A stretch of 33,725 bases of DNA from Kaiparowitsia implicata GSE-PSE-MK54-09C (GTDB taxonomy: Bacteria; Cyanobacteriota; Cyanobacteriia; Elainellales; Elainellaceae), in assembly GCA_019359435.1 (NCBI GenBank), contig JAHHHI010000018.1:1-33725 (forward strand). The letters are read 5' to 3'. The stretch's first letter is position 1, and every line of letters starts with the position of its first letter. The position numbers and the translations under genes were made by a program. Below the pieces are notes generated by a model, which worked only from the letters and a program-made list of their open reading frames with translations, had not been told where the DNA came from and searched no databases. Below, piece by piece: positions 3,406-33,378 of this stretch.

Positions 3406-3568
3406 GCGCATAGTGCAGCAGGGGCATGTGGCATCGCCCTAGGAACAGGCATGCTGTTTTCTAGCCGCGTTAACCATGTCTCTGCACACCCGCACCCCGT
3501 CCTCAATTCTTAGACTTGGGGAAGGGGCTGGAGCCATCGCTTTGAGAAAGGGTACGAAGTCGGCGTGT

Positions 3569-3614
3569 CAACACCTGATGCCCGACTCCCCTGCGAGTCG
3601 GGCATCAGGTGTTG
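3569..3614. repeat. perfect 20-bp stem hairpin
   Basis: CAACACCTGATGCCCGACTC (3569-3588) is exactly inverted at 3595-3614 around the six-base loop CCCTGC. No T-tract follows on either strand, so it is not a textbook intrinsic terminator. Perfect stems of this length are expected to be young or maintained, and may be a mobile REP-like unit. Confidence 0.85.
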
Positions 3615-3766
3615 AGGAAGCAACGGTCGGCCATGCTACAACGGGTAGGGATAGGATGAGATACCCGTGCCACCATAGCGGGTGCGCTAAATTCAACACT
3701 GTGCGTTATATCAATTCTCTAAATCAGAACGACGGATTGTTTGAGGAGGGGGGTGTGCGTTCCCCA

Positions 3767-3820
3767 CAAGGGGGCAAAGCCCCCTTGCCCCCTATTTGTA
3801 GCCCAAATTTTCGGAATTGA
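3767..3820. repeat. 54-bp dispersed GC-rich hairpin repeat, copy 1
   Basis: It begins with the hairpin CAAGGGGGC-AAA-GCCCCCTTG and continues CCCCCTATTTGTAGCCCA and ATTTTCGGAATTGA. The copy at 9281-9334 matches 46 of 54 positions without gaps. The loop differs (AAA against TTC) while the stem is unchanged, which points to selection on, or recent origin of, the structure. Confidence 0.85.
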
Positions 3821-3904
3821 ATTACCTCACGCTCTGGGCGATCGCCCAAGGGAACGCTGTGTCAGGCCTGACAAACAGAACCGGGCCGACGAAAAACGAG
3901 AGCC

Positions 3905-5227
3905 TTAGTCTGCTGATTGAGGACTGGTCTGGCTATGAACGGGCAGCTCAATCACAAATTTTGTGCCTTCTCCCAGAACGGAATCGCACGTGAGCTGTCC
4001 CCCATGCTTTTCGGTCACAATTTGATGGCTAATCGACAAGCCTAGCCCGGTGCCTCTGCCCATCGGCTTTGTGGTAAAAAAAGGCTCAAACAATTTTGCA
4101 CGGGTTGCGTCACTCATCCCCAACCCATTGTCAGCAATGAAAATCGAAACGCGATCGGGGTTAATCTGTGTCGTGTGAATCTGAAGCAATGGCTCAAACG
4201 CTAAAGCCGCTGAACCCGAGTTTTTCTTACTTTGAATGCTGTCGTCTAAGGCATCAATGGCATTGCTCAACAGGTTAATAAACACTTGGTTGAGTTGGCC
4301 TGCATAGCATTCAACATCTGGTAGATCGCCATATTTTTTGAGGACGTTGATTATAGGGCGATCGCTCACTGCTTTGAGCCGATGCTGCAGAATCATCAGG
4401 CTACTATCCAAGCCTTCATGCAGATTAAATGGGCAGGGACGCTCGCAATCAACTCTAGAAAAGTTTCGCAAGCTGTAGCTAATTTCGCGAACCCGATTGA
4501 CGCCTTCTTGCATAGAGGCAACCAGCTTCAACAAATCCTCACGCAGATAGGGCAGATCAATCTCTTCAATGCACTGCTCAATCTCGGCTCCAGGCTGCGG
4601 GAATTTGTGCTGATAAAGGGTAAGCAATCCCAACAGGTCATTCACGTAGTCTCGTGCAGGTGGCAGGTTTCCCGAAATAAAGCTAATCGGGTTATTAATT
4701 TCGTGGGCGACTCCCGCCATCATTTGACCGAGCGCCGACAGCTTCTCGCTTTGAACAAGCTGAAGCTGAGATCTTTTGAGCTGATCCAGGGTTGTTTGTA
4801 GGGCCTCAGTCCGCTCTGCCACTCGCTCTTCTAACTCTTGAGTCAGGTTATAAAGCTTTAAGTGAACATTGACGCGCGCCAACACTTCATCTTGCTGAAT
4901 GGGTTTTGTAATGTAATCGACGGCTCCCAGCGAGAGGCCCTTAACTCGATCAACCGAATCCGATAGAGCCGTTGCAAAAATAACGGGAATGTCGCGGGTA
5001 CTGTCTAACGCCTTTAAGCGGCGACAGGTTTCAAACCCGTCAATACCCGGCATCATCACATCCAGCAAAATCAGGGCTGGCGTAGCTTTTGTTACTTTCT
5101 CTAGCGCACTTTCCCCGCTGTTGGCGACTAGCACTCGGTGCCCCGCCTCACGCAATACATCCGTGAGCACTTTTAGATTATTGAGGTTGTCATCAACAAC
5201 GAGAATCAAATTCTGAGGATCATTCAT
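3905..5227 (-). CDS. receiver domain-histidine kinase hybrid, soluble
   Basis: A 440-residue cytoplasmic signalling protein. Residues 1-122 are a CheY-like receiver: acidic pocket VDDN near 11-14, phosphoacceptor Asp56 in [11 protein letters not shown], Lys108 in YITKP. A coiled coil (about 125-160, [20 protein letters not shown]) leads to the dimerisation helix with His175 in [14 protein letters not shown]. The ATPase domain shows the N box [12 protein letters not shown]1 DNGLGMS and G2 GTGLGLSI. The layout suits the last step of a phosphorelay: the receiver accepts phosphate from another kinase and tunes this one. It has no DNA-binding domain, so the output is unclear. It lies 17 bases downstream of the Cache kinase on the same strand, clearly one operon. 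Confidence 0.95.
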
Positions 5228-9280: not shown

Positions 9281-9334
9281 CAAGGGGGCTTCGCCCCCTT
9301 GCCCCCCACGTGTAGCCCAGATTTTCGGGATTGA
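9281..9334. repeat. 54-bp dispersed GC-rich hairpin repeat, copy 2
   Basis: Second copy of the element at 3767-3820, in the same orientation. Hairpin CAAGGGGGC-TTC-GCCCCCTTG, then CCCCCCACGTGTAGCCCA and ATTTTCGGGATTGA. Eight differences in 54, none of them in the stem. Confidence 0.85.
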
Positions 9335-9481: not shown

Positions 9482-9796
9482 CTAGTTTGCTGCGGCGCAA
9501 GGGTCAGCGCTGGCGCAGGGGTCGGCACTAGCGCAGGGGTCTATGCTGGCGCAGGGGTTAGCTTTGCCAGCACAGGGATCAGCGCTGGCGCAAGGGTTAG
9601 CTTTGCTAGCACAGGGGTCAGCGCTGGCGCAAGGGTTAGCTTTGCCAGCACAAGGATCAGCACTGGCGCAGGGGTCAGCTTGCACTTCAGAGCCAGAGGG
9701 GGCAGTTGTGTTCGGTGTTGGCGTGGTGCATGCAGTTATTAGACCAACACTCAATACAGAGGCGATCGCATAGGTAGCTAAATATTTAACGCGCAT
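9482..9796 (-). CDS. Cys-rich repeat lipoprotein with ten (D/N)PC motifs
   Basis: A 104-residue predicted lipoprotein of unknown function. The start is set at ATG 9796 because MRVKYLATYAIASVLSVGL followed by ITAC is a complete lipoprotein signal; a frame opening at 9835 adds 13 residues that spoil it. After the lipobox Cys and a short TPTPNTTAPSG linker, the rest is a periodic array of PCAS, PCAG and PCAA blocks, each preceded by D or N. Ten cysteines recur at alternating spacings of 5 and 6 residues. The DNA is itself tandemly repeated, so copy number may vary. Similar NPCAxK-type proteins occur in other bacteria, and metal binding or disulfide cross-linking at the envelope are inferences. 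It is divergent from the lipoprotein gene at 10019. Confidence 0.8.
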   Translation of the reverse strand: MRVKYLATYAIASVLSVGLITACTTPTPNTTAPSGSEVQADPCASADPCAGKANPCASADPCASKANPCASADPCAGKANPCASIDPCASADPCASADPCAAAN

Positions 9797-9880
9797 TAGA
9801 TTTTTCCCAAAGAGACAGTAAACAACAGTCGGCATTGCTATTTAGCCAGGTCTGGCTGAGCTGTTCCTGATGCAGAAATA

Positions 9881-14030: not shown

Positions 14031-14161
14031 CTAGGGGCTGTCATCAAATAGCCTCTGATATCCCAGAAATTAACGGTCACAGCCCCTAGCCTGGTTATTG
14101 GGTCGGGCGTGGCAACGCTCATAGCATCAGGTGTTTGGTTGGAATTGATGACACGCCCTAG
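14031..14161. mobile_element. 131-bp MITE, copy 1
   Basis: Ends CTAGGGGCTGTCATCAA and TTGATGACACGCCCTAG are 17-bp terminal inverted repeats with 15 matches. CTAG at both ends may be the duplicated target, as in IS5-group elements. Copy 2 at 31970-32100 has the same length and matches 102 of 131 positions without gaps. An internal ACAGCCCCTAG (14079-14089) forms a perfect 11-bp stem with the left end. No coding capacity. The right end lies in the stop codon of the kinase gene at 14158. Confidence 0.85.
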
Positions 14162-16125
14162 GTCTGACGCCATTGGTGCAGAGTGCCGCTGGCGCTGGCG
14201 CTAACTAGCGTGCCGTTGGCAAAAAATGCGAGGCGAGGGGGCGCGATCGCCCCGCCTTTGGCGGTGTCGTCTGGCAAAACGAACGTGCCGCTAAGGGTGG
14301 CTGTGGTTAAGTCCCATAGGTTCACCTGCCGATCGGGGCTAGCGGTGGCGAGCACAGTGCCGTTGGGATGCAGGGCGATCGCCCCAATGGGTAGCGTATG
14401 CCCGGTGAGGGTGTGGCGCAGTGCCCCCGTTTGCACCTGACGCAGCTTCACGGTGACATCCCAACTGGCGCTAACAGCGGTTTGTCCATCGGGGGTGAGG
14501 GCGACTGCGCTCACCCGCGCGGTGTGGCTAGGCAACGTGCGCAATAGCTCTTGCGTGCCCAAGTGCCAGAGTTTGAGCGTGCCGCCGGCATCGCCGCTGA
14601 GCAGCAGGTTGCGGTCAGGGTGAAGGGCGATCGCCTCAATCGACTGCGGATGGCCTGTAAAGGTATGCAGCAGCTTGCCACTCAGGGTATCCCACAGGCG
14701 CAGGGTTTTGTCGCGGCTGGCGCTCACCAACCGCTGCCCCGCCCCATCCAAGGCCAGTGCGGTGATGCGATCGCCGTGCCCCTCCAACACGCGAATCGTC
14801 TGCCCCGATTTCACATCCCACAGCCGCACGGTGCGATCGTCGCTGCCGCTGGCGAACTGAACGCCGTCTGCGCTAACGGCCAAACTCGTAATGCTGTAAT
14901 CATGGCCAACGAACTGCCACCGCATCTCATCTCGATCCACATCCCACAGGTTGAGAGAACACCCTTGCTGGGCCTTGGGGGAGGGGCTTGCCCCAGCGGG
15001 GCTAGGGGACGCGCTTCCTGCGACCAGCAGCAGATTCTCTTGAGGTAGGGGGGCGATCGCCTGCACGGCATGCCCCAGCGCCAGGGTATGGATGCAGCGC
15101 CAAGGGTTGGCTGTTGACGGATCGCCAGACTGGCAGCCAGACCAGTGACCCGTCTGGCTGCCAGTCTGAACGGCGGTGGTTTTCCACTGGAGGGCTTGCC
15201 AACTGGCCGACAGGCGAATCTGGGTGGGCGATGCGCCCAAGTCTTGCAGCACGGCGGCAGCGGTGGCATAGCGATCGCCCAGGGGCATGGCTACAAGCCG
15301 ATCCAGAATGCGGGCTAGGTCATCCCCAATGTCTCCCGCGACGCTGCGCCAATACCACTGGCCATTCGCCGTATCAAATAAATCAAAGGGAGACAACCCC
15401 GTGACCAACTGCAGACAGGTTGTGCCTAATCCATAGAGGTCGCTGGCAAAGGTTGCCTTACCCATCAACTGCTCGGGTGCGGCATACTCGGCGCTGCCCA
15501 TCACGGTGCCGGTTTTTGCCAGCGCCGACTGGGTGGCAAACTTCACGGCACCAAAGTCTACGAGCATCCAGGAATCGGCTGGGCGTTGGGACGATAGGGC
15601 GATCGCATTGGCGGGTTTGACATCTCGATGGATGACGTGGTGCTGGTGCAGGTAGTGCAAGACGGTGAGGAGCGATCGCAGTACAGCCCGAATCTGCGGC
15701 TCGTCGAAGGTGCCGTGCTGTTGCAACTGCTGCAACAGGCTCGAGCCATCCACAAACTGCTGCACCAAAAACTGCTGTGCCCCGCGCTCAAAGTAGGCCA
15801 GCACATCGGGTAGTTGGGGATGGTCACTCAATTCTGCCAGCTTGGCGATATCGTGCCGCAGCCGGTCGGCATCACTCAGACTGCCGGGCAAATCGGGATG
15901 GAGTGACGCCTCGGCCTCGCTGGTGCTGTAGCGCTTGATGATGCAGCGGGGATCGAGCAGTTGTGTGGTATCCATCCCCAAAAACGTGCGGCTAGAGTTG
16001 CCGCTGCCCAAGGGCTGAAAGGCGGCATAGCGATCGCCCAGCCGCAATCGACTGCCGCAGCTCTGGCAAAAGTTCATCCCCTGGGGATTGGCAGGGTGGC
16101 GACACTGAGGGGTGAGGCAATACAC
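14158..16125 (-). CDS. zinc-ribbon Ser/Thr protein kinase with WD40 propeller (paralogue 2)
   Basis: A 655-residue eukaryotic-type kinase. Residues 1-24 hold four cysteines in a zinc-ribbon pattern (CLTPQC ... CQSC). The kinase domain (about 33-300) has an unusual glycine loop, LGSGNSSRTFLG, Lys64, HRDVKPAN (Asp168), DFG (190-192) and activation loop GTVMGSAEYAAPEQ, so it should be active. After a linker, seven WD40 blades end in LWD-like motifs (LNLWDV, VRLWDV, LRLWDT, LKLWHL, VKLRQV, VNLWDL, LHQWRQ), one full propeller for partner binding. Blade 1 has a Pro/Ala/Ser insertion (SPSPAGASPSP). The TAG stop is inside the CTAG end of a MITE. It follows its paralogue after 155 bases. Confidence 0.95.
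   Translation of the reverse strand: MYCLTPQCRHPANPQGMNFCQSCGSRLRLGDRYAAFQPLGSGNSSRTFLGMDTTQLLDPRCIIKRYSTSEAEASLHPDLPGSLSDADRLRHDIAKLAELSDHPQLPDVLAYFERGAQQFLVQQFVDGSSLLQQLQQHGTFDEPQIRAVLRSLLTVLHYLHQHHVIHRDVKPANAIALSSQRPADSWMLVDFGAVKFATQSALAKTGTVMGSAEYAAPEQLMGKATFASDLYGLGTTCLQLVTGLSPFDLFDTANGQWYWRSVAGDIGDDLARILDRLVAMPLGDRYATAAAVLQDLGASPTQIRLSASWQALQWKTTAVQTGSQTGHWSGCQSGDPSTANPWRCIHTLALGHAVQAIAPLPQENLLLVAGSASPSPAGASPSPKAQQGCSLNLWDVDRDEMRWQFVGHDYSITSLAVSADGVQFASGSDDRTVRLWDVKSGQTIRVLEGHGDRITALALDGAGQRLVSASRDKTLRLWDTLSGKLLHTFTGHPQSIEAIALHPDRNLLLSGDAGGTLKLWHLGTQELLRTLPSHTARVSAVALTPDGQTAVSASWDVTVKLRQVQTGALRHTLTGHTLPIGAIALHPNGTVLATASPDRQVNLWDLTTATLSGTFVLPDDTAKGGAIAPPRLAFFANGTLVSASASGTLHQWRQT
15126..15168. 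repeat. perfect 17-bp inverted repeat inside the kinase linker
   Basis: CAGACTGGCAGCCAGAC (15126-15142) is exactly inverted at 15152-15168 with nine bases between. It lies in frame in the linker between the kinase domain and the WD40 propeller, encoding TGSQTGHWSGCQSG. The paralogue at 16281 lacks it. A small palindrome tolerated in a flexible linker is the likely explanation. Confidence 0.85.
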
Positions 16126-30499: not shown

Positions 30500-30540
30500 T
30501 GCAAAGGGGCGGGATGACTCAGTCATCCCGCCCCTTTGCA
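30500..30540. terminator. 20-bp perfect stem hairpin after msrB
   Basis: TGCAAAGGGGCGGGATGACT and its exact inverse are separated by one base. It lies 59 bases past the msrB stop and 114 before purB, both on the plus strand, so it can separate the two transcripts. No long T-tract follows (CATCAGTCC). Confidence 0.6.
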
Positions 30541-30653: not shown

Positions 30654-31949
30654 TTGATAGAACGGTATACCTTGCCCGAGATGGGCAATCTCTGGACAGA
30701 TGACTATAAGCTGCAAACCTGGCTGCAAGTAGAAATTGCAGTCTGTGAAGCGCAGGCAGAACTGGGATATATTCCCCAAGATGCGGTCGATACCATCAAG
30801 GCTAAGGCAAAATTTGACCGGGCTCGAGTGCTCGAAATCGAGGCGGAAGTGCGCCACGATGTGATCGCGTTTCTGACTAATGTGAATGAACATGTGGGCG
30901 AGGCCGGGCGCTATATTCACCTGGGTATGACGAGCTCTGATGTGCTAGATACGGCGCTGTCGCTTCAGCTGGTGGCCAGTTTAGATGTGATCATGACCCA
31001 GGTCGAAGCGCTAATTCAGGCGATTCGCTTTCAGGCTCAGCAGCACCGCGATACGGTTATGGTGGGGCGATCGCACGGCATCCACGCAGAACCGATTACC
31101 TTTGGGTTTAAGCTAGCAGGCTGGCTAGCAGAAATGTTGCGCCATCGCGATCGCCTCTGTCGGCTGCAAAAGCAGGTGGCGGTGGGCAAAATTTCAGGTG
31201 CGGTGGGTACCTACGCCAATGTCGATCCCCAGATTGAGGCGATCGCCTGCCAAAATCTAGGCCTAGAACCCGACACTGCCTCAACCCAGGTAATTTCGCG
31301 CGATCGCCATGCTGATTTTGCCCAGGCCCTTGCGCTGCTCACAGCTTCTATTGAGCGCTTTGCCGTCGAAATTCGCAACTTGCAGCGCACTGACGTCTTA
31401 GAAGTAGAGGAATTTTTTGCCAAAGGCCAAAAGGGCTCTTCTGCAATGCCCCACAAGCGCAATCCCATTCGCTCAGAGCGACTCACAGGCATGGCACGAC
31501 TCGTGCGCGGGCATGCCGTTGCCATGCTAGAAAACGTAGCCCTGTGGCACGAGCGCGATATCTCCCACAGCTCTGTCGAGCGGGTCGCCCTGCCCGACTG
31601 CTGCATTCTCACACACTTCATGCTGGTAGAAACCACGGATTTGATCAAAAATCTGCTGGTGTATCCCGAAAACATGAGGCGCAATATGAATGTCTATGGA
31701 GGCGTCATCTTCAGTCAAAAAGTGCTGCTGGCGCTGGTCGATAAGGGCCTATCCCGAGAAGAGGCCTATGCCATTGTGCAAGGCAACGCGCATACCGCCT
31801 GGAACCAGCCCAACGGCGACTTTCAGGCCTTGACCGAGCAAGACCCCCGTGTCACAGAGCACCTATCACCCGATGACATCGCCCACTGCTTTGATCCAGC
31901 CCAGCATCTTAAGCATCTAGATGTGATTTATCAGCGGTTGAGCATTTAG
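30654..31949 (+). CDS. purB: adenylosuccinate lyase
   Basis: A 431-residue enzyme of the fumarase/aspartase superfamily that acts twice in purine synthesis, releasing fumarate from SAICAR and from adenylosuccinate. TTG 30654 is the start: the protein then begins MIERYTLPEMGNLWTDDYK, the normal PurB N-terminus, and no ATG is near. Active-site blocks are MTSSDVLDTALS, MVGRSHGIHAEPITFG and the signature GSSAMPHKRNPIRSE. RHDVIAFLTNVNE is also typical. Length is standard for short PurB. It stands alone, as expected in cyanobacteria. A 131-bp MITE begins 20 bases after the stop. Confidence 0.97.
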   Translation: MIERYTLPEMGNLWTDDYKLQTWLQVEIAVCEAQAELGYIPQDAVDTIKAKAKFDRARVLEIEAEVRHDVIAFLTNVNEHVGEAGRYIHLGMTSSDVLDTALSLQLVASLDVIMTQVEALIQAIRFQAQQHRDTVMVGRSHGIHAEPITFGFKLAGWLAEMLRHRDRLCRLQKQVAVGKISGAVGTYANVDPQIEAIACQNLGLEPDTASTQVISRDRHADFAQALALLTASIERFAVEIRNLQRTDVLEVEEFFAKGQKGSSAMPHKRNPIRSERLTGMARLVRGHAVAMLENVALWHERDISHSSVERVALPDCCILTHFMLVETTDLIKNLLVYPENMRRNMNVYGGVIFSQKVLLALVDKGLSREEAYAIVQGNAHTAWNQPNGDFQALTEQDPRVTEHLSPDDIAHCFDPAQHLKHLDVIYQRLSI

Positions 31950-31969: not shown

Positions 31970-32100
31970 CTAGGGGCTGTCATCAATTAGTCGCGTATGG
32001 TCCAAGAATCAAAGGTTACAGCCCCTAGCCTGTTGTTTGGGGCGGGCGCGGCAGGGCTTATCCCACAAGGGTTTTGGTTGTAATTGATGACGCGCCCTAG
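31970..32100. mobile_element. 131-bp MITE, copy 2
   Basis: Same length and ends as copy 1: CTAGGGGCTGTCATCAA left, TTGATGACGCGCCCTAG right. It lies between convergent genes. ACAGCCCCTAG is again inverted against the left end. The right CTAG contains the stop codon of the minus-strand gene at 32097. At 78% identity with copy 1 the two are not fresh copies of each other. Confidence 0.85.
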
Positions 32101-32378
32101 GCATGATGCGCAATTTGCAGAAAAGATGCCATTAGGTTGCAGTATTCCTGCCGTTGCAACGCCCCTTGCCCACATAGCTCAGACAGACAACTGTTGAGAG
32201 AGCTAAAGGTCATTTCAGCAGAAATCCATTGCCTGCCATGTTCAATGGCGAGTTCCGCAGTGGCAAATACCTGACTAGACGTGATGATGGTGCCAATCGG
32301 AAGCGTGACCTGCCACTTCCAGCGATCGCTCACCAACGCGGGATTAATTGGAATTCCGTAATAGTTTTGGCTATCCAT
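32097..32378 (-). CDS. small conserved cyanobacterial protein of unknown function
   Basis: A 93-residue soluble protein. ATG 32378 is chosen over ATG 32387 because GGGGA sits at proper distance from the former. The core pattern is DRWKWQVTLPIGTIITSSQVF, ELAIEHGRQWI, LNSCLSELC and QEYCNLMASFLQIAHHA. This looks like a conserved cyanobacterial family to me, but I know no function. Its TAG stop is inside the CTAG end of MITE copy 2, so the natural C-terminus may have been trimmed or just preserved by the insertion. Confidence 0.7.
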   Translation of the reverse strand: MDSQNYYGIPINPALVSDRWKWQVTLPIGTIITSSQVFATAELAIEHGRQWISAEMTFSSLNSCLSELCGQGALQRQEYCNLMASFLQIAHHA

Positions 32379-33240
32379 TGGAACCATCCCCGAACGATAA
32401 ATAATGTTGAATTATTTTTTAATCTGTCAGAATAATAACGTTACAGTCCTCCCTGTTATTTTTCATGTGTAGTCCTAAATCAGGTCATGCGATTGTAGAA
32501 CAGGGGTGGAGCGCGGTCTGCACCTACGCATGACCTGAATGCCACCATCCTCCATCCTTTAAAGAGTCGAATCTAGTTCGGCCTTTACAGTCTCAACAGG
32601 GTTAAGAGATAAAATCCTTAGCGCGCTATCCACTGCGGCGCTCGTGCTGAAGTGGGCCAAGTGGCATTTCTAAATAGAAATAGAACCAAAAGTAGGATAT
32701 GAAACCTTGCAGAGATAGAGTTTCATCCCACAACTTTAATTGTACGCCTGAGCAGAGGGTGCTGCAGCCGTAGGATTCAGTAATATAAGTCGCGTTTCTA
32801 GCAGGCTTCAGCGATTTGTAAATGAAGTAAGCCGATGGATGTTAGCTCCTTCTGTCGTTCAGCAACGCCTCTATATTCACGCCTTGCGAGTCAGAAAGCG
32901 GTCATGGTGTCGATGGCAAACTTCTTTGCGCTGATCAATAGAGGGTCGCGAAGCCGAGTTGGACTGCTGGTAAGACGTCTTGTGCTGTGTTGGCTCTTCT
33001 CACTAAAAAGAGAAGATGCGTCAGAACCAAGACTCGTGGGCACGTCCCCCAGAACCCACACTAGGGGACGTGCTTCGTCCCCTAGAACCTCTCCGCAAGG
33101 GGTTGGGTGCTGGTGGCGTTGGACTGGGCATTGGCAAGACAACTCGGCTTGGGACTGAAGGGAGAAATAGATCCATCCTAAGGGTAGGACATGTTGAAAA
33201 ATCTGGGTTCGGATTATGACGGTTGGGGTGCAGTACGCAC
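32379..33240. other. long spacer with palindromes, no supported gene
   Basis: About 860 bases. A perfect 12-bp inverted repeat, TCAGGTCATGCG (32480-32491) and CGCATGACCTGA (32527-32538), encloses 35 bases. CTAGGGGACG-TGCTT-CGTCCCCTAG forms a hairpin at 33061-33085, similar in style to the 54-bp repeats. The plus-strand frame 32835-33158 crosses this hairpin and has no ribosome site, so it is rejected. Confidence 0.5.
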
Positions 33241-33378
33241 TCACGTTAACCTGAGTTCGGGATAAGCTCAAACCCTTAATGTGCCGTGCGCGACGCGCAC
33301 GGCACATTAAGGGTTTTGGGGCATCGCGCGTCGCGCGATGCCCCAAAACCCTCTTAACCCGAACTGACGTCACGTTAA
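33241..33378. mobile_element. MITE with 9-bp target duplication and two overlapping long hairpins
   Basis: TCACGTTAA occurs at 33241-33249 and 33370-33378, a likely 9-bp target duplication. Inside are imperfect 17-bp terminal inverted repeats (33250-33266 and 33353-33369, 14 of 17; core AGTTCGGG). Between them are a perfect 21-bp stem with loop CGACG (33270-33316) and another 21-bp stem with a one-base loop (33310-33352). They share AGGGTTT at 33310-33316, so both cannot form fully at once. No coding capacity. Confidence 0.75.

Follow-up and report, generated by a model that had tools for sequence, protein, structure and literature searches.

It is highly probable that the two 131-bp repeats in the window, by which we mean the whole stretch of 33,725 nucleotides analyzed here, are copies of an IS5-type MITE moved in trans, and that their position at stop codons results from target chemistry plus purifying selection and not from recruitment as terminators. 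In the mechanism that we propose, the non-autonomous element would be moved in trans by an IS5-family transposase. It inserts at YTAR, mostly CTAG, with TA on both sides, and if the target is a stop codon, TA together with the terminal G of the element restores TAG and the protein end is kept. Copies in coding sequence or in promoters would presumably be lost, so that those in stop codons and 3' flanks remain. Since target chemistry and purifying selection would account for the stop geometry, recruitment as a terminator would not be needed. The first-pass annotation of this DNA had offered survival bias of stop-preserving insertions as one of two explanations, and this alternative held up and could be made precise: insertion occurs at the TA within a YTAR stop codon, and the first base of the element then completes a new TAG.

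Two MITE Copies Overlap Stop Codons in the Window

Copy 2, which belongs to a young subfamily, occupies positions 31970–32100 of the plus strand and reads CTA-GGGGCTGTCATCAA at its left end and TTGATGACGCGCCC-TAG at its right end, with the target TA at 31971–31972 and 32098–32099. Copy 1, from a larger subfamily, lies at 14031–14161 on the plus strand. The two had been described as equally long, and indeed both measure 131 bp and share 102 of 131 positions in an ungapped comparison, for which 2000 shuffles yielded a maximum of 51. The reported overlap of the right end with a TAG was likewise found, and it applies to both copies. At copy 2, the minus-strand stop of a 96-aa gene (32097–32387) is located at 32097–32099 and consists of the target TA and the terminal G of the element; at copy 1, the minus-strand TAG of a Ser/Thr kinase-WD40 gene (14158–16125) falls on the right edge at 14158–14160. 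In both cases the plus strand reads CTA at the stop, within the terminal CTAG of the copy. The 96-aa protein gave no Pfam or NCBIfam match at E 0.001. On the other side of copy 2, and convergent with it, lies purB (30654–31949, plus strand) for adenylosuccinate lyase, which matches TIGR00928 with 585.2 bits over profile positions 1–435 of 436 and ends, as had been noted, 20 bases before the element starts at 31970. The claim that two of two copies have the same geometry was correct insofar as both sites are convergent and both right edges lie in a TAG, but the left-hand gaps differ, with 156 bases at copy 1 (gene end 13874, element start 14031) compared to 20 at copy 2.

Further repeats were seen in the window. 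Perfect inverted repeats of 20–23 nt with loops of 1–6 nt occur at 33270–33352, 3568–3615, and 30500–30540. Part of the 33270–33352 motif recurs beside an IS relic on host contig C77, and a second repeat family is therefore likely. Another repeat of 54 bp, with a CAAGGGGGC palindrome, is present at 3767–3820 and 9281–9334 (85% identical), and a minus-strand ORF at 9482–9835 contains 39-nt tandem repeats.

The MITE Family in the Host Genome and Beyond

In the host genome (6.72 Mb, 109 contigs), the degenerate end CTAGGGNNNGTCATCAA has 202 exact matches, compared to 0 for the reversed control pattern. Searches with the sequences of copy 2 and copy 1 yielded 42 and 40 matches, respectively, whereby the best 40 of about 200 candidates were scored in each. 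Among the matches listed, copy 2 forms a group of nine, the other eight being 97–99% identical to it, and copy 1 falls into a larger group whose nearest copies are up to 96% identical. From the stretches around the listed matches we obtained 130 unique full-length copies, with 16 partial or indel-bearing host matches excluded; copies with damaged ends lie in part outside this sample and all copy counts are to be read as "at least." The length between the two TAs is exactly 125 bp in 92 of the 130 copies and ranges from 123 to 136 bp. No called gene lies inside any of the sampled host copies. For comparison of the sequences, we aligned 27 copies (L250 was left out), which come from the host genome, G012, 14 titled assemblies, and three further loci without a title, and in most of them 16 of 18 positions of the terminal inverted repeats are complementary. 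The element is thus short, non-coding, bounded by terminal inverted repeats, and dispersed in many copies, and it has a target duplication and ends in common with an autonomous element (see below), as is the case for bacterial MITEs. With its well over 100 copies, the family represents ordinary mobile DNA, and stop preservation is a side effect.

Rfam searches at gathering thresholds gave no match over copy 1 or copy 2. A strict two-end pattern matched only one of 386 genomes sampled across the phylum, namely the host itself, which means that either the family is patchy or this pattern is too stringent. In G031, a pattern search pointed to at least 38 places. At two host loci (C70:36723–36983 and C98:8057–8315) two copies stand head to tail with one common CTAG each, which results from one copy having inserted at the edge of the other. 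Outside the cyanobacteria, a 233-bp stretch with the same terminal repeats was found, among the matches listed, in Candidatus Uabimicrobium amorphum (L252, approximately 3819–4051); it could be a related IS5 MITE or a transfer.

The Target Site Is YTAR

Both edges were inspected in the 130 host copies. They read CTA on the left and TAG on the right in 87, CTA and TAA in 19, TTA and TAG in eight, and TTA and TAA in one copy, and TA is present on both sides in 116. At the position 5' of the left TA, 92% of the copies have C and 8% have T; at the position 3' of the right TA, 82% have G and 17% have A. As judged from these edges, the duplicated unit is TA within a preferred YTAR, chiefly CTAG, because 19 copies read CTA on the left and TAA on the right. 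A duplication of all four YTAR bases was considered and discarded: on the left, CTA is directly joined to the G of the element, and the right edge is TAA in the 19 copies mentioned. E. coli IS5 duplicates four bases, and the MITE with its TA differs from it in this respect.

When a YTAR stop serves as target, TA and the terminal G of the element form TAG and the end of the host protein is kept. Because the G of the element follows the target TA, an insertion into a TAG or TAA stop results in TAG at an unchanged codon position. CTAG is palindromic, and the stop can therefore be rebuilt on either strand. Where two convergent genes have a CTAG in common, both stops are rebuilt at once. This is the case for host locus L044, where the stops of both neighbors lie within one copy and joining the flanks on one TA restores a CTAG common to both genes; L232 and L266 from other assemblies also have the stops of both neighbors within one copy.

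Autonomous IS5-Family Relatives Are Present in Related Genera

The first-pass annotation had proposed an IS5-group element with the same ends as mobilizing partner. We searched 36 genomes of the order, including the host, and this proposal was borne out in part, since a partner is present in related genera but its left end deviates and the host genome yielded no intact element. G010 (L060, 840 bp) and G021 (L063) each contain an element bounded on either side by GGGCGTGTCATCAA, and in G025 (L066) one element end is altered and the reading frame is interrupted. The transposase of L063 matches NF033580 with 303.8 bits (cut-off 110) as well as PF13340 and PF01609 above cut-off; that of L060 also matches NF033580 and is split over two overlapping frames. 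All three copies read CTA at the left edge and TAG or TAA at the right edge. The partner thus has a DDE transposase of the family and a YTAR target, as is characteristic of the IS5 family. Its right-end 14 bases are identical to those of most MITE copies, while the left end differs at two of 14. Like these relatives, which belong to the IS5 family by transpos_IS5_3 (NF033580), the MITE has terminal repeats and a YTAR target, and it differs from them in carrying no gene.

The transposase query detected three fragments and no intact cognate IS in the host genome. The fragment on C77 is a decayed 3' relic that ends in the right-end sequence of the MITE, and the other two, located at contig ends, derive from a sister IS whose own ends are different. 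PF13340 was detected at five host places, whose retrieved flanks contained no exact end of MITE type but a few looser matches. Most likely, the MITE is mobilized in trans by an IS5-family transposase, and the mobilizer may be absent from the host or hidden at a contig break.

Subterminal Hairpins and Placement Between Genes

The 27 aligned copies have their ends and internal motifs in common, and the remaining interior is variable. In copy 2, the left terminal motif CTAGGGGCTGT (31970–31980, plus strand) is complementary to the internal ACAGCCCCTAG at 32018–32028 (plus strand), which would form a left subterminal hairpin; a CAGCCCCTA-like internal motif complementary to the left end is present in the 27 copies. 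This hairpin is nearly invariant, with each of its nine pairs kept in 26 or 27 of the 27 copies when G-T is counted. The internal GGGCGCG at 32044–32050 (plus strand) is complementary to the right terminal CGCGCCC at 32091–32097 and would form a right subterminal hairpin. Across the aligned copies, this motif consists of GGGC and then, in most cases, GYG, and is complementary to the right end. It was recognized in 209 of 231 copies, a set in which part of the J069 copies may appear twice; the other 22 are without it. Of the 209, 146 have T-A and 53 have C-G at one of the pairs (199/209), and 10 are exceptions, among them four with T-G. The host genome and Lyngbya each have copies in both states. 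The covariation of this one pair suggests a kept structure, whereby the right hairpin was defined by hand after inspection of the sequences and the pair is partly inherited within subfamilies. RNAalifold, applied to the 27 copies, chose an end-to-end stem, in which it reported no pair where both partners had changed. On either strand, the RNA of copy 1 and of copy 2 has a better fold than shuffled sequences (z -2.4 to -3.5).

The element recurs across many cyanobacterial assemblies with near-constant length, two subterminal hairpins, and a diverging interior, and the T-A/C-G switch described above is a compensatory one between an internal and a terminal base. There is a small chance that it is maintained as a structured 3'-end RNA or DNA module that is put at message ends by stop insertion. 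If so, it would be a module for protection or processing of mRNA 3' ends, or the hairpin would be needed for mobilization.

The other explanation offered in the first-pass annotation, namely that copies between convergent genes are kept as bidirectional transcription terminators, is unlikely. It could draw on the conserved subterminal hairpins, on the folding of both window copies on both strands, and on an over-representation of convergent gaps relative to the CTAG supply. Such gaps hold 30 of 120 host copies with both neighbors called, compared to 24 of 169 CTAG sites (P 0.02), and 15 of 42 copies in the other, multi-genus set, compared to 28 of 187 (P 0.004); for Lyngbya, the numbers are 8/32 and 7/93. 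However, a consensus scan limited to loops of 3–8 detected no terminator-like site inside 31970–32100 or 14031–14161, and a GC stem followed by a T run, as is typical for intrinsic terminators, is thus lacking in both copies for these loop sizes. Moreover, 90 of the 120 host copies lie in tandem or divergent gaps, which also means that the convergent arrangement of the two window copies is not a general rule. Promoter avoidance would give the same 3' bias, and the multi-genus set, as the sole one where this is significant, has fewer copies in divergent gaps than expected from the supply (2/42 compared to 57/187, P 0.0003). Finally, in the host the stop hits correspond to the supply of CTAG near gene ends, as outlined in the following.

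Stop Hits in the Host Match the Supply of Target Sites Near Gene Ends

Stops were hit more often than expected from all intergenic YTAR sites in the host (23 of 115 compared to an expectation of 13.3, P 0.006; an earlier calculation with a different mask had put the expectation at 11.25 of 115) and in the multi-genus set (19 compared to 5.3 expected of 46, P 2.5e-7), and the numbers for Lyngbya are 5 compared to 3.0 expected of 36 (P 0.17). This excess, strongest in the multi-genus set, is what would speak for a transposase that prefers stop codons as such, by context or in a translation-linked manner, beyond CTAG. We take it to reflect avoidance of upstream regions. If the comparison is restricted to the 100 nt that follow stops, the host excess is gone: 25 insertions at the stop and 48 beyond it stand against 40 and 71 CTAG sites, respectively (odds ratio 0.92, P 0.88). 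The corresponding odds ratios of 2.4 for Lyngbya and 1.6 for the others are above 1 but not significant. A preference for stop codons as such therefore appears quite improbable, and host stop hits match the CTAG supply near gene ends. The enrichment over all intergenic sites was demoted by this near-gene control. Stop hits were not commoner among more diverged copies, as measured by identity to the nearest relative (P 0.87); therefore, no gradual filtering is visible.

Gene Ends at the Edges Are Exactly in Register and, for Two Genes, Native

Genes were called with our own hexamer gene finder trained on these loci, and among the genes called with a stop at the edge a few are short, with lengths of 32 and 38 aa. 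In the host genome, an edge lies in a called stop codon in 24 of the 130 copies, and 25 of 127 gene ends facing a copy stop exactly at the edge, that is at TA plus the G of the element, with 0 of 127 deeper inside. For other cyanobacteria, a scan with the exact end pattern gave, among the matches listed, 95 entries, of which 87 were kept and eight without a right end at 118–130 bp were excluded. Here, 27 of 99 facing ends stop at the edge, two stop six codons inside, and none elsewhere inside. No called gene spans a sampled copy in either set. Pooled, 52 of 226 facing ends lie exactly at the edge and two deeper, and the chance of at least 52 of 54 falling into one of three frames is 1e-22. The two deeper ends (L201 and L261) have the tail LGAVIN from the left end of the element and are either fusions or truncations.

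Relatives point to native stops. NdhJ, the clearest case, matches NF009141 to the last residue (5–175 of 175); 32 relatives were matched, and at 29 of 29 loci the stop is read at the same codon, always as YTAR. For the 96-aa gene at copy 2, five of six relatives stop at the same residue, four of them (L284, L285, L286, and L289) with a clean frame and L288 with an internal stop; two of these five stops are CTAG. The frame in L287 ends five residues earlier, which counts against a native stop. A pre-insertion allele with the stop elsewhere, which had been named as a possible refutation, was thus not what we encountered for copy 2, where the result was the opposite. Ten relatives of the kinase-WD40 gene end between -11 and +9 residues from its own end, two of them exactly; by this comparison, its end is normal but not exactly placed. 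Ten host stop-edge genes were compared with NCBIfam, and matches of TrmB, RsfS, HisA, and ChlL type extend to or almost to the ends of the respective models. As judged from the relatives, the stops of ndhJ (29/29) and of the 96-aa gene (5/6) are native. That the element supplied new stops, so that genes were truncated and only in-frame TAG edges survived, is highly improbable. In its favor, the terminal TAG would directly stop one frame in three and two genes do run six codons into the element. Against it, we count 52 ends at the edge and two deeper, whereas a ratio of about one third to two thirds is expected for random frames, and the ends in relatives coincide for ndhJ and, with one exception, for the 96-aa gene.

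Meaning and Comparison With Known Systems

The analysis describes a large cyanobacterial MITE family together with an identified type of autonomous relative. It indicates how a transposon can fill gene-dense genomes cheaply, as the palindromic CTAG is a possible stop on both strands and the first base of the element restores it. It also offers a simple, testable account of bacterial repeats that are said to "provide" stop codons, and it advises caution against taking stop geometry for a recruited function.

Among the literature matches listed, no title or beginning of an abstract describes this MITE family, which may be described elsewhere. Nezha, mentioned in PMC3049150, is likewise a cyanobacterial MITE, for which ISNpu3-like elements are the proposed mover. 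Repeats that supply stops, namely BOX and GTAG-tagged REPs, have already been reported (PMC3049150, PMC3733652, PMC10969869, PMC5896051, PMC6382973, PMC11677980). According to a passage in PMC3733652, the termini of GTAG-tagged REPs, which also occur in cyanobacteria, often give TAG to adjoining ORFs. These REPs are palindromes of 20–40 bp with a tag at one end, whereas the MITE comprises 131 bp, has terminal inverted repeats, and carries TA at either end. For BOX repeats of Streptococcus pneumoniae, a passage in PMC3049150 counts 36 cases in which the repeat encodes the stop codon of a gene at its very 3' end, refers to no strong evidence for truncation in these cases, and suggests that insertions downstream of genes are better tolerated. 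As far as this passage goes, BOX and the MITE are alike in being short mobile repeats that provide gene stops. The MITE differs from BOX in its sequence and host, in the exact register that the CTAG/TA target confers, and in the native stops of two of the genes concerned.
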